Part shown: positions 51,069 to 59,509 of the stretch, one piece after another
Numbering within the stretch: position 1 is the first letter of the stretch
Layout: each line of letters begins with the position of its first letter
NCBI GenBank assembly: GCA_021847425.1
Contig: JAJZRF010000009.1
Location: 1 to 59,904 of the forward strand
Source: Deltaproteobacteria bacterium
GTDB lineage: Bacteria > Desulfobacterota > Desulfobulbia > Desulfobulbales > Desulfurivibrionaceae
DNA: 59,904 nucleotides
Direction of reading: 5' to 3'
Made by a program: the position numbers and the translations under genes
Notes under the pieces: model-generated
The model's database searches: none
The model's input: the letters and a program-made list of their open reading frames with translations, nothing else
What the model was told of the DNA's origin: nothing

Positions 51069-51929
51069 ATGATGGATGTAGCCGCAGAGTATGTCAGGGA
51101 TGTTGACAAGATAGCCCCGTGCCCGGAGGTGGCGCTGGACGTGCTGTCCATGGCCCACGCCCCGGATTGCTCCATTCCCAAGCTGTCGGAAAAAATAGAG
51201 CAGGATCCGGGCCTCACCGCCAACATGCTGCACATGGCCAATTCCGCCTACTTCGGCCACATGAAAAAAATCACCTCGGTCAAGGATATCATCGTCCGCA
51301 TGGGGGTGGACACCGTCAAGATCATCTCCATCACCAGCGCTTCGGTCGGCTTGCTCCGATCGCCGCAACCGGCTTATGCCCTGGGAAGGGGCGAGCTCTG
51401 GCGCCACTCCTTCGCCGTTGCCATCCTGGCAAATATCATTGCCCGCCACGCCAAGGCCAGAGACACCGCCGCCATTTACACCGCAGGGCTCCTCCATGAC
51501 GTGGGCAAGGTTATCCTTGATCGGCCCTTGCAGGTGGAAAGCTACAGCCGGGATGAAAACGGCGAGCAGGCGGATCTGCTGAGCGTGGAACGGAGCCTGC
51601 TGCATACGGATCATGCCGAGGTGGGTATGGCCCTGCTGGAAAAATGGGGCTTGCCGGAGGCGGTTGCCGTGCCGGTTGGTCTGCACCATGACATGACCCA
51701 ACCCCAGTCGAAAAGGCTGGGTGCCAAGATCATCTATCTGGCCGACCAGTTGGTGCATCTTACCGAATACGACGCCGGCGGGTCCGAGGATTTCTTTTTT
51801 GACGTGCTGGCCTATGAGAGCAGGAAAGAGGAGCTGCCCGAGGTGCCGAATTTTGAAAGCAACATGCGTCTGATTATAGAGGAGTTTGTTGACAAGTACC
51901 AGGATGCTGTCGCCGTGTTCAGTCTTTAG
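51069..51929 (+). CDS. HDOD-domain signalling protein
   Basis: The 286-residue soluble protein has an HDOD domain: PCPEVALDVLSM, QDPGLTANMLHMANSAYFG, then the HD-like core AGLLHDVGKVILD and HHDMTQPQSKRLGAKIIYLADQ. HDOD proteins work in signalling, often linked to cyclic di-GMP or chemotaxis networks, usually without phosphodiesterase activity. It is convergent with the gene for the receiver/CheW fusion protein, which fits a shared signalling module, though the two are not in one operon. Confidence 0.9.
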   Translation: MMDVAAEYVRDVDKIAPCPEVALDVLSMAHAPDCSIPKLSEKIEQDPGLTANMLHMANSAYFGHMKKITSVKDIIVRMGVDTVKIISITSASVGLLRSPQPAYALGRGELWRHSFAVAILANIIARHAKARDTAAIYTAGLLHDVGKVILDRPLQVESYSRDENGEQADLLSVERSLLHTDHAEVGMALLEKWGLPEAVAVPVGLHHDMTQPQSKRLGAKIIYLADQLVHLTEYDAGGSEDFFFDVLAYESRKEELPEVPNFESNMRLIIEEFVDKYQDAVAVFSL

Positions 51930-51991: not shown

Positions 51992-53917
51992 TTAAGCCGC
52001 TTCGCCGACCAGCACCGCTTCCTGGATATGCATGAGCCGGTCAATGTCCAGGAGGATGGTCACGCCTGCGGCGAGTTTGGCCATGCCCAGCAAGCACTGG
52101 CTGTCAACCGCGCTGCCGAATTTGGGGGGATCTTCCACCTCCTGCTCCTTGATGGTCACCACCTCGGACACCGCGTCGACAATGACGCCGATGAGCCGGG
52201 AGCCGGTGAGGCCGGAAACCTCCACCACGATGATGCAGGTGCGGGGATCATACTCCGCGCCCTCCATGCCGAACTTGCTCCGCATGTCCATGACCGGGAT
52301 GATCTTGTCCCGCAGATTGATGACCCCTTTAAAAAAGGGCGGCATCTGCGGCAGCTCGTGGATGGCTGTCAGGCCGATGATCTCCCGGACATCGAGGATG
52401 CCCAGACCGTACCGCTCCTTGCCCAGGGTGAAAATCAGATACTTGCCCTCGCGGGAGACAAGATTCTGGTCGATGCCCAGTTTCCGGGCTGCGCCCCGGG
52501 GCGCGGCTGTTTCCTGGCCCGCTCCGGCCGTCATCGGCGGATGCTTGCAGGCGATATCGGCAAAACGGGTGTCGACAAACTCGGCGAGATCGATGCGCCT
52601 CCCGATCTCCATTTTGGAGGCCATGTAATCCTGGATGGTCTCCAGATCCTCGCGCACCGGATAGAGATTGTCCGTGGTGATCCCCTGGGGGTCAGAGAGC
52701 ACATTGCGGAGCAGACCGGGTTCGAGGCCGATCTTTTTCTGCGGGTCGAGAAAAGCCACGGCGATCTCCGCCGCCTCGTCAACATGATCCCGGATATGGA
52801 TGCCGGCTTCCACCAGCATGGTGGTGAATTCCTGCACCGCCTCCGGGTATTTGCTGAGAATCTCTTCCCGGAAGACCACGACGCAGCACGGGTGGTCCTG
52901 CCAAACCTCGCTGGAGAGGAACTGGCGCTCGGCAATGCCTGCGGTGATGGCCCGCGAGCCGATGGGCTCGGCCACCAGGAAACCGCTGGCCTCCGGGTTT
53001 TCCTTTAGAAATTCCGGCATGGCCACCGGCGGCACCACGTCGAAGAGGACGTTAACCGCTTCCTTGCCAGCCACCCCGGGCCGCAAGCCCATCTGGGTGA
53101 AGTACATGTGGGCGAGCATGTTGTGCACCGACATCTTGTGGGGGATATAGAAGGTCTTGTGCTTGAAGAACTGCTGGTACGGCTTGACATACTTGCCGGT
53201 CTTGTTGCGCACGCAGATGCTGCCGTTGCGGTGGGCGAAAAGCACCAGCTTGATGGGCACGCCGTAGCTGAACAGATCCATGGCCATGGGGGCCAGGATA
53301 AAGGCGCCGTCCACCTCGCCGTTTTCAAGCGCCTTTTGCACCGGGTTCCAGCCCGGCATGCAGAGGGTGTCCAGACTGAAGTGCCGGGGATTTTTCTGGC
53401 CCGAGGCAATCTGGTGCTTGAGCACTCCCAGGGCCAGATGGTCGGTGATCTGGATATGGGCCATCTTGAGCTGAACCTTGCCCTCGGTGCTGACCTTGGG
53501 GCCTTCCTCTTTTTTGGGGGCTGCCGCCTGTTTCAGGCCAAAGGCCGCCTCGATGAGAACCTTGAGCTCATCCGGGGTAAAGGGTTTGCCCACCACGCCG
53601 TTGGCCCCGGCCTCCGTGGCCTTGGCCACATAGGCCTTGTCTCCGTGGCCGGTGGCCATGAGAAAGGGCAGCTTCTTGAAACCATCTTGCTCGCGTATCC
53701 ATTGCAGCAGCTGGTAGCCGTCGCAGTTGGGCATGGACCAGTCGCTGATGACCAGGGCAATGTCCGGTTCGGCGCCAAGCTTTTCCATGGCCTCGTTGCC
53801 GTCCACCGCCTCGACGATGTTGCTGAAACCAACCTGGCCGAGAATCCGGGCTTCCATCTTGCGCATGGTCTTGGCATCTTCAACGAGTAAAATCTTCATC
53901 TGCGGATCAAGGGCCAT
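51992..53917 (-). CDS. receiver domain / ABC-type substrate-binding domain / CheW fusion protein
   Basis: The 641-residue protein has three parts. Residues 5-128 are a CheY-like receiver (LLVEDAKTMR; phospho-acceptor D59 in ISDWSMP; TGHGD; K111 in GKPF). Residues about 150-470 form a substrate-binding domain of the NrtA/SsuA type (KMAHIQITDHLALGVLK; GEVDGAFILAP; AEPIGSRAI). Residues about 490-635 are CheW (KYLIFTLGKERYGLGILDVREIIG; GVINLRDKIIPVMDM). There is no signal peptide, so the binding domain is cytoplasmic. It could sense a nitrate-, sulfonate- or bicarbonate-like ligand and pass it to a CheA complex. GGAGGTGG precedes ATG 53917. Confidence 0.92.
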   Translation of the reverse strand: MALDPQMKILLVEDAKTMRKMEARILGQVGFSNIVEAVDGNEAMEKLGAEPDIALVISDWSMPNCDGYQLLQWIREQDGFKKLPFLMATGHGDKAYVAKATEAGANGVVGKPFTPDELKVLIEAAFGLKQAAAPKKEEGPKVSTEGKVQLKMAHIQITDHLALGVLKHQIASGQKNPRHFSLDTLCMPGWNPVQKALENGEVDGAFILAPMAMDLFSYGVPIKLVLFAHRNGSICVRNKTGKYVKPYQQFFKHKTFYIPHKMSVHNMLAHMYFTQMGLRPGVAGKEAVNVLFDVVPPVAMPEFLKENPEASGFLVAEPIGSRAITAGIAERQFLSSEVWQDHPCCVVVFREEILSKYPEAVQEFTTMLVEAGIHIRDHVDEAAEIAVAFLDPQKKIGLEPGLLRNVLSDPQGITTDNLYPVREDLETIQDYMASKMEIGRRIDLAEFVDTRFADIACKHPPMTAGAGQETAAPRGAARKLGIDQNLVSREGKYLIFTLGKERYGLGILDVREIIGLTAIHELPQMPPFFKGVINLRDKIIPVMDMRSKFGMEGAEYDPRTCIIVVEVSGLTGSRLIGVIVDAVSEVVTIKEQEVEDPPKFGSAVDSQCLLGMAKLAAGVTILLDIDRLMHIQEAVLVGEAA

Positions 53918-54225
53918 TGTGCCACCTCCTTTTTTCAATATAGATGAAGAACGGGGTTTCGACAACAACGGAGAAAAAAGGAAAAATGGACAGGGATCTC
54001 AACGTGCGGCGACCGGAGAATTATTCCGGGCGCGACTTGGGCGAAGGTTTCATAATGAGCGCTCAAGGCGGATCTCTCTGCTGTTTTCTTTGATAGGCAA
54101 GCATGACGAGAATCCCGCTCTTTTTTGTCGCGTGGGTTTGTTCTTGCCACTCCCCGGGGAAAATGGTCAATTGGCACCGCGACCTAAACCATTTTCAGCA
54201 TAACCATATCCGCGCAGCCTGCCCC

Positions 54226-58113: not shown

Positions 58114-58189
58114 ATTATTGTAGCACATTGTGGTAGGGTGCCCCTTCAATTTTTTCCGCTGGCAAATAAAAAAAATCGGGAAGGGCGCA

Positions 58190-59509
58190 ATGGTGAAAAA
58201 GTATGGGGTGGTTATGGCGACGGCGGTCATGCTGGCTTCGGCAGCGCACGCCGGAGAGCGCGAGGGCTGTCGCCTGTGCGGGATGTACATCGATCAATAT
58301 CAGGCCACGAGCGCCATTGTCACAGGCAAGGATGGCCGGGTTGAAAAGACCTGCGGGGGAGCCGATATGCTGCGGCTGGTTTCTGACGCAGGCGGGGTCG
58401 GGGCCTTTGCCTCGGTGGTGGTGCACGACTGGGTGAGCGGCAAGGAGATTGCGGCGGCCGGGGCCACCTATGTCATTGGCAGCGACACGGTGCCGGATAT
58501 GATCCCCAATATCATCGCCTTTGCCGATCAGGACGGGGCAAAAAAATTCATCTCCGAGCATGGCGGGCAATCGCTTACCTTTTCCCAGGCCCTGCTGGCG
58601 GTTTCCCCCATGGGCATGACCATGCCCAACCGGGTCAACTCGGCGGTGCCGCCGCCAAAGGGCTCCATGAGTGCGGGGGCGGGCTATATGGCCATGGTCA
58701 AGGATGATTTGATGATGGGGTCAAACAAGGTCTCTACCGCCCAGTTTTTGGCAGCCACCACTGCGCTCAATCCCCAGCCGATGATCTCCAAGAAGATGGA
58801 AGCATCAGGCCCCATGCTGATGGCCAATTACGGAATCACGGACCGGTTGTCGCTTACGGCCAAGATCTCGGATCTGGACAAGACCATGACCTCGGCTATG
58901 CGGATGGGCAGCGCCGAGAGAGTCACCGAGCACAAGGGGATCAGCGATCTTGAGACGAAGCTGGTCTACAATCTGTGGCGGGATGACTATTACAGCAAGT
59001 TCGTCAGCCTGATGGGCAACATGACATTGCCCATCGGCGATTTTGACCCCGCCTTCCGGACCATGCCGGGGCTGCAGCTTGGCACCGGCAGTCTCGATAT
59101 CGGCGGCGGTCTGCTGGGCTCGATTCGCTTCGGGGATTTCTGGCTGCATGGCGAAATGAGCTATCTGGCCAACCGGGAAAACGGGGATGATTATGCTTTC
59201 GGCGATGTCACCAAGCTTGGCGCGGCGCTCCATTACACCCCGAATTACGACCTGATGCTGGGGTTGGAGCTGGACGCCACCGATACGGGCAAGAATGAAA
59301 GCTTTGGCGCTAAGGTCCAGAACAGCGGGGGGCGGGAGGTCCTGCTGACCGGTGTGGCCAGCTGGCGGGTTTTCTCAGCTTTTGGCGGAAACTTCAGCCT
59401 GAACGGCAGCTATGGGCGCCCTCTCTATGAAGATGTCAATCTCTACGGGCTGGGTACCGATTATGTGGCCACGGCGATGCTGAATTTCAAACATCGGTTC
59501 AATTATTGA
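58190..59509 (+). CDS. NosL-domain / outer-membrane beta-barrel fusion protein
   Basis: The 439-residue protein has a signal peptide (MVKKYGVVMATAVMLASAAHA), then a NosL-like copper-chaperone domain with CRLCGM (C27, C30, M32) and a later C55 in EKTCGGADM. From about residue 200 to the end, alternating hydrophobic strands (YGITDRLSLTAKI; LVYNLW; WLHGEMSYL; ATAMLNFKHRFNY) end in an aromatic residue, typical of an outer-membrane barrel. NosL binds Cu(I) in nitrous oxide reductase maturation; here the fusion may take up or export copper at the outer membrane. GGGAAGGG precedes ATG 58190. Confidence 0.85.
   Translation: MVKKYGVVMATAVMLASAAHAGEREGCRLCGMYIDQYQATSAIVTGKDGRVEKTCGGADMLRLVSDAGGVGAFASVVVHDWVSGKEIAAAGATYVIGSDTVPDMIPNIIAFADQDGAKKFISEHGGQSLTFSQALLAVSPMGMTMPNRVNSAVPPPKGSMSAGAGYMAMVKDDLMMGSNKVSTAQFLAATTALNPQPMISKKMEASGPMLMANYGITDRLSLTAKISDLDKTMTSAMRMGSAERVTEHKGISDLETKLVYNLWRDDYYSKFVSLMGNMTLPIGDFDPAFRTMPGLQLGTGSLDIGGGLLGSIRFGDFWLHGEMSYLANRENGDDYAFGDVTKLGAALHYTPNYDLMLGLELDATDTGKNESFGAKVQNSGGREVLLTGVASWRVFSAFGGNFSLNGSYGRPLYEDVNLYGLGTDYVATAMLNFKHRFNY

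Follow-up and report, generated by a model that had tools for sequence, protein, structure and literature searches.

The locus and its genes

The window analysed here, a stretch of 59,904 nucleotides from a genome of the Desulfurivibrionaceae that is 81% complete, carries on its reverse strand a gene at 51992-53917 (ATG at 53917, stop codon at 51992-51994), whose coding frame (51995-53917) is supported by its translation, by Pfam and by orthologues, and encodes a protein of 641 aa. Three domains follow one another in this single frame: a receiver (REC; residues 9-122, 53552-53893; Pfam Response_reg, 1.4e-24), a substrate-binding (SBP) fold of the NMT1_2 / NrtA-SsuA kind (residues 145-460, 52538-53485; Pfam NMT1_2 over residues 145-386, 9.3e-28), and a CheW domain (residues 492-630, 52028-52444; Pfam CheW, 6.2e-35). 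All three matches exceed the curated cut-offs, and we refer to the protein as REC-SBP-CheW. The receiver begins right at the N-terminus, no signal peptide or membrane segment was detected in the protein, and the hydropathy maximum (1.85 in a 19-residue window) is located in the CheW domain. A Shine-Dalgarno-like AAGGAGG can be read 7 nt 5' of the ATG (53925-53931, reverse strand), and a sigma-70-like promoter match (TTGTCG-17-TATATT, 9/12) lies just upstream of the gene at 53937-53965 on the same strand. Promoter matches are to consensus only (3 sites, against a shuffle mean of 1.0, sd 0.9), as are those of the terminator scan (5 sites, shuffle mean 2.3, sd 1.6).

The initial annotation had pointed to a convergent HDOD neighbour, and such a gene does lie at 51069-51929 on the forward strand (ORF list, Pfam), opposite REC-SBP-CheW. 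The same pair occurs in 10 of the 80 named loci described below (the best 80 of 296 relatives), all of them close relatives, and since it was not seen beyond these, we rejected the HDOD gene as a functional partner; its position is no evidence for a functional pair. No importer genes lie beside the REC-SBP-CheW gene in the window. Elsewhere, at 58130-59509, we note a 459-aa frame whose start resembles NosL, with a motif (CRLCGMYIDQY) that we take to be NosL-like, and which continues into a long barrel-like part.

Domain architecture and fold

An AlphaFold2 model built with a 51-row alignment (A2) has a mean pLDDT of 86, and comprises three confident domains and their linkers. Across residues 141-460 ten-residue blocks average approximately 92, with 23 of 32 blocks at 90 or above; the second linker (residues 461-488, 52454-52537, reverse strand) falls below 50 and is predicted to be flexible. 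In Foldseek comparisons the start of the protein matched CheY (3rvo, TM by target 0.93), the end matched E. coli CheW (8c5v, TM by target 0.89), and the middle part matched 3un6 best (TM by target 0.90), followed by structures of the CmpC / NrtC regulatory domain at ranks 2-4 and 6, and by NrtA (2g29, E 1.1e-15, TM by target 0.67). Pfam and the structural matches thus confirm what had been proposed from the letters of the sequence: a receiver, an SBP domain lacking a leader and a CheW domain are joined in one frame, and residues 145-460 do adopt a substrate-binding fold in the model. NrtA and CmpA are exported and serve ABC importers, whereas this domain has no leader and, in the window, no adjacent importer.

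The functional residues of the two flanking domains are also retained. E13, D14, D59, T89 and K111 of the receiver are present in 70/70 full-length proteins, so that the phospho-acceptor D59 (codon 53741-53743) and K111 are as intact as initially reported. Arg536 of the CheW domain, present in 51/51 proteins of alignment A2, aligns with Arg62 of E. coli CheW, a residue that matters for coupling.

Distribution and phylogeny

A scan of genome contigs with nine SBP domains returned 319 stretches and 296 relatives; the top 80 of these relatives constitute our named loci. Among these 80, 69 hold a whole REC-SBP-CheW gene, 1 holds a copy cut by a contig end, 2 are split over two frames, and 8 encode REC-SBP without CheW. 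In a separate search of 58 genomes (own included), a near full-length match was found in 26, one of these being cut at residue 555; two further genomes (G009 and G026) hold larger pieces of the gene, the G009 copy being in two pieces, and another (G020), counted as a non-carrier, has only the linker and the CheW domain, in a frame of 255 aa (64%). The possibility of an assembly artefact joining separate genes is ruled out by the 69 whole copies in 80 named loci, spread over several phyla by record title, and by the 26/58 genomes. The cultured Desulfobacterota named in these titles include Desulfurivibrio, Desulfonema magnum, Desulfacinum infernum and D. hydrothermale, and metagenome-assembled genomes carry their depositors' labels of Ignavibacteria, Melioribacteraceae, KSB1, Latescibacterota, Acidobacteria, Anaerolineae and others. 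We also sampled 395 genomes evenly across the phylum: 26 contained an A1-type SBP (at E 1e-40), of which 21 encode REC-SBP-CheW (truncated by a contig end in one case) and the other 5 have exported-type SBPs only. A plasmid search with the whole protein gave 27 records, none covering 80%, and among the 20 matches listed all were to the CheW end.

A tree of the SBP domain (93 rows, five exported rows being added by hand, with a midpoint root for drawing only) unites the REC-SBP and REC-SBP-CheW rows in one group (77 rows, 100/100), to which four leaderless single-domain SBP rows are joined next (81 rows, 100/100). Exported SBPs fall outside, although three of their rows are very long branches of unsure placement. 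Mapping the REC-SBP-CheW label onto the tree requires 5 changes, and CheW has therefore been lost or gained more than once. We conclude that REC-SBP-CheW is a real, old family. The leaderless stand-alone SBPs (approximately 306-312 aa) share the same pocket and are found at L059 2542-3465, L060 6220-7143, L128 6458-7393 and L196 8391-9308, those of L059 and L060 being near aro-like / ispD-like genes, as read from translations. They are a possible ancestral form of the sensor domain and, together with the tree, suggest a stepwise route from importer protein to signalling domain.

The REC-SBP module also works outside coupling, given the 8 of 80 loci that encode it without CheW, one of which (L129 500-3697, 1066 aa) fuses it to a histidine kinase in the order REC / DUF3369 / HisKA / HATPase / REC / SBP. 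L058 (9151-17466) has a REC-SBP gene without CheW and, after it, genes for a HEAT-repeat-like protein that includes a receiver, for a PP2C-like response regulator, for CheA and for an MCP; these functions were read from translations, and the CheA also matches PF02895.

Conservation of the pocket

In all 86 REC-SBP-CheW proteins compared, H154, T158, D159, H160, W190, H229, S263, H265, E317, H342, C344 and C345 are invariant, as is S233 in 51/51 proteins of alignment A2. The patterns used to scan for the named loci included two pocket motifs, ITDH and IPHKMSxH, so that the search itself accounts in part for their conservation in the named loci, where only W190, H229, E317, H342, C344 and C345 are free of this bias. 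The ligand pocket, whose fate the initial annotation had left to be checked, hence appears to be kept, and its strict conservation suggests that the SBP domain is probably a working sensor.

The Cys pair (C344-C345; 52883-52888, reverse strand), part of an invariant H-P-C-C motif, falls at an informative position. In an alignment to the CmpC regulatory domain, a His stands opposite H265 and, 73 residues further on, a Lys opposite C345. In NrtA, His196 and Lys269, likewise 73 residues apart, are the charge-setting residues according to the available part of a review (PMC8786288), and in CmpA a Glu holds bicarbonate, with calcium (excerpts of PMC8786288 and PMC13249358). Our equation of Cys345 with NrtA Lys269 derives from the CmpC alignment and the equal spacing, rather than from a direct alignment to NrtA. 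Cys345 occupies this selectivity position in 86/86 proteins in place of the Lys or Glu, which makes nitrate or bicarbonate an unlikely ligand. The initial description of an NrtA-like binding domain therefore survives for the fold (2g29) and fails for the pocket: the pocket seems to be kept, yet it is unlikely to be a nitrate pocket, and the domain would be NrtA-like in fold only.

W190, H229, S263, H265, C344 and C345 are instead the residue set of what we term CC-pocket SBPs, a grouping of our own that includes 3UN6, and the window protein carries all six in its sequence. Together with E317, the set recurs in 8/8 Tat-type exported SBPs, and also in nine plasmid importers and three operon partners, E317 being replaced by Asp in L206 and L213. 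The position of H154 is Tyr in all 8 Tat-type SBPs and in all 12 importer and partner SBPs, whereas H160 is kept in 7/8 of the former, and is Ala in 11/12 and Ser in 1/12 of the latter, and so ligands may differ within the CC-pocket group.

These patterns bear on the idea that REC-SBP-CheW acts as a phosphate sink or scaffold of the CheV type, its SBP fold having lost ligand binding and serving as a structural spacer. CheV, too, combines a receiver with CheW (as described in the portion of PMC12691637 available), and the protein's own genome (81% complete) lacks a related importer SBP. However, a pocket invariant in 86/86 proteins, and largely common to exported SBPs, is not expected of a spacer, and we regard this explanation as very unlikely.

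Clues to the ligand

The record title of 3un6 describes the protein as zinc bound, and NitT/TauT-type importer SBPs encoded in operons of clade B Ni-CO dehydrogenases are said to be homologues of 3UN6 (in the available text of PMC6344411). Of 54 plasmid records with a match we examined 9, eight of which have the arrangement acyl-CoA-dehydrogenase-family / ATPase / SBP / permease, and in the ninth, from Ruminococcus albus, SBP, permease and ATPase are followed by cooS. In Synechococcus elongatus the former cluster stands after cysK on a 46-kb plasmid, which we infer to be the plasmid with many sulfur-related genes reported in part of PMC8049743. Six importer loci of Desulfobacterota were also examined: in four, a CO dehydrogenase gene immediately precedes that of a CC-pocket SBP, which is accompanied by permease and ATPase genes (L215 8503-11423, L216 7950-10870, L217 8033-11039, L218 7871-10874), while the other two (L219, L220) show a Mrp/NuoL-like cluster, as read from translations, and come from genomes in which the exported SBP lies approximately 7-8 kb from the REC-SBP-CheW gene. 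The presence of CO dehydrogenase in a genome was not informative about the ligand, because 71/80 genomes match over the cut-off, carriers or not. The window SBP domain gave no match to NCBIfam SaoX (NF040735) at E 0.001; six relatives score 40-80 bits, whereas membership of the family requires 300 bits. The Sao system is linked to selenium and organometals.

The ligand probably belongs to the class of compounds that CC-pocket ABC importers take up. Our leading guess, given the CO dehydrogenase, 3UN6 and SaoX clues, is a transition metal or a small metal complex; a small sulfur or one-carbon compound would be the next.

In three loci, L095 (Desulfonema magnum), L132 and L135, the gene is itself followed by importer genes, in the order REC-SBP-CheW / ATPase / Tat-SBP with CC pocket / permease, with gaps to the ATPase of about 100 nt, 34 nt and 16 nt, respectively (Pfam assignments here are limited to the L135 SBP and the three genes of L095). 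The SBPs of these importers are 23-26% identical to the sensor domain, have Tyr at H154 and Ala at H160, and, for L095 and L135, fall in the farthest group of the 93-row tree; they may bind something other than what the sensor domain binds. This arrangement would suit a sensor of transport rather than of free ligand, whose SBP domain contacts a CC-pocket ABC importer from the cytoplasm, much as the NrtC/CmpC regulatory domain contacts its own ATPases, and informs the array of flux; the CmpC domain offers a parallel in that it regulates its own transporter (excerpt of PMC13249358). Against this, the link is present in only 3/80 named loci, and a second A1-type SBP is absent from the genome of the window (81% complete), which leaves the protein there without an importer partner of this kind and without a related importer SBP. 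Transport sensing accordingly strikes us as highly improbable.

Association with chemotaxis

The genome of the window (81% complete) holds 12 CheW-domain, 13 MCP-domain (two in one frame), 3 flagellin-domain and 4 H-kinase_dim matches, and thus provides, away from the locus, the CheA and chemoreceptors for which a search had been recommended, along with flagellin. The CheA-specific family PF02895 is present in 45/45 carrier genomes (G001, G009, G026 and G133 having an incomplete copy) vs 26/35 others (Fisher p 3e-4, kinship not corrected). Within the source genus FliG occurs in 17/17 genomes, and C17-type MCPs with a C17-type CheA in 13/14 carriers, the exception being G009; the three non-carriers lack both, except for one MCP in G014. 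However, in the window's own genome the CheW domain of REC-SBP-CheW is closest to the CheW of the C33 operon (56%), which argues against simple assignment to the C17 CheA.

The gene is mostly solitary. Second copies lie within chemotaxis clusters in G019 and G017 (L055, L061), that of L055 between two MCPs and that of L061 beside an MCP, with a PF02895 CheA in both, and the other che genes named from clusters and translations. Elsewhere the gene directly upstream is CheR, with CheA before it (L091, L097), CheR (L120), CheD (L122) or an MCP (L111, L127, L138). Over 52 representative loci, chemotaxis genes make up 10/185 neighbours within two places vs 2/174 at places 4-6 (p 0.023), or 21 vs 5 once receivers and HDOD are included as well (p 0.0015). 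The class of each neighbour was assigned from its similarity to proteins that we had named by reading translations, an approach that missed some kinases. The pocket also occurs in exported form within a chemotaxis cluster, at L194 4238-12656 (G072:C61) and L167, where the gene order is CheR / double CheW / Tat-exported CC-pocket SBP / MCP and is followed by CheA and a CheB-like gene.

Neighbouring kinases raise the question of which domain provides the main input. Hybrid histidine kinases adjoin the gene in L090, L099 and L114 and lie one gene away in L097, and the L129 fusion places a kinase on REC-SBP itself, as might be anticipated if a hybrid kinase outside the array phosphorylates D59, the protein relays this two-component signal into the array and the SBP domain only tunes it. 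Few of the 80 named loci nevertheless have such a kinase neighbour, and the window gene has none; moreover, the pocket is as strictly conserved as D59; we therefore hold a receiver-driven protein to be unlikely.

Proposed mechanism

We propose, as the reading that we consider reasonably probable, that REC-SBP-CheW is a CheV-like coupling protein of reversed domain order, into which a cytoplasmic ligand sensor has been inserted. From what is known of these families, the CheW domain would dock the protein into the CheA/chemoreceptor baseplate, and the SBP domain would close on a small cytoplasmic ligand; closure, transmitted through the flexible 461-488 linker, could alter the CheW coupling of receptors to CheA, so that the array might read an internal pool besides outside stimuli. 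CheA or a neighbouring hybrid kinase may phosphorylate D59, which would then serve in feedback or drain phosphate, in line with proposals made for CheV. Carriers may thus steer by what is inside them.

A more specific version, which we offer as doubtful, is that the baseplate of many anaerobes holds a coupling protein that is a cytoplasmic receptor for a metal or metal complex: an SBP with a His/Cys pocket that formerly served an importer would have lost its export signal and gained a receiver and CheW, enabling steering by internal metal supply. Coupling proteins are mostly treated as connectors; a coupler with a ligand pocket of its own would, if this is true, constitute a direct internal input to the array that needs no chemoreceptor, and a single protein with a single ligand would then suffice to test whether the array senses metabolism.

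Comparison with known systems

In CheV the CheW domain comes first and the receiver second, with nothing between them. REC-SBP-CheW shares with CheV a CheW-like domain and a phosphorylatable receiver with a conserved Asp in one cytoplasmic protein (both domains found by Pfam, the catalytic residues of the receiver intact in 70/70), but differs in that the receiver is first and a 316-residue substrate-binding domain stands between. A phospho-mimic CheV of Pseudomonas aeruginosa binds selected chemoreceptors, CheV has been suggested to act as a phosphate sink, and there is continuing debate on what its receiver does (in the available part of PMC12691637).

For the middle domain, one precedent is the C-terminal domain of CmpC / NrtC (9uai, 9uak, 9u9z, 8wm7), which is likewise a cytoplasmic regulatory ligand sensor of the NrtA family, and which in CmpC senses nitrate and blocks the ATPases at low nitrate (excerpt of PMC13249358). 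That domain is instead fused to an ABC ATPase, controls its own transporter and, in CmpC, has a Lys where Cys345 stands. The best fold match is 3UN6 from Staphylococcus aureus, which has W190, H229, S263, H265, E317 and the CC pair, and lacks S233 and H342; unlike our protein, 3UN6 and the SBPs of CO dehydrogenase operons are exported, serve ABC importers and are without receiver or CheW.

NasS is a cytoplasmic, leaderless NrtA-like nitrate sensor that is paired with the receiver protein NasT, the two being separate proteins whose output is RNA antitermination, with no CheW. REC-SBP-CheW resembles this pair in combining a leaderless NrtA-like sensor with a receiver, yet does so in one chain and with CheW. 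We found no description of the REC-SBP-CheW architecture in the openly licensed literature searched, which is not proof of absence: the available parts of PMC2577667 and PMC12691637 do not describe it, and that of PMC10542144 holds no SBP term.

The initial annotation had suggested that an SBP fold was recruited as an internal sensor wired to the CheA array. A cytoplasmic SBP in a CheW protein, a conserved pocket and CheA in the genome all agree with this, whereas recruitment itself is not new, since the C-terminal domains of NrtC and CmpC set a precedent for cytoplasmic use of an NrtA-like fold. CheV would thus be the model for receiver plus CheW, and CmpC that for a cytoplasmic NrtA-type sensor, with one chain combining both; what is new is the wiring of such a sensor to CheW.
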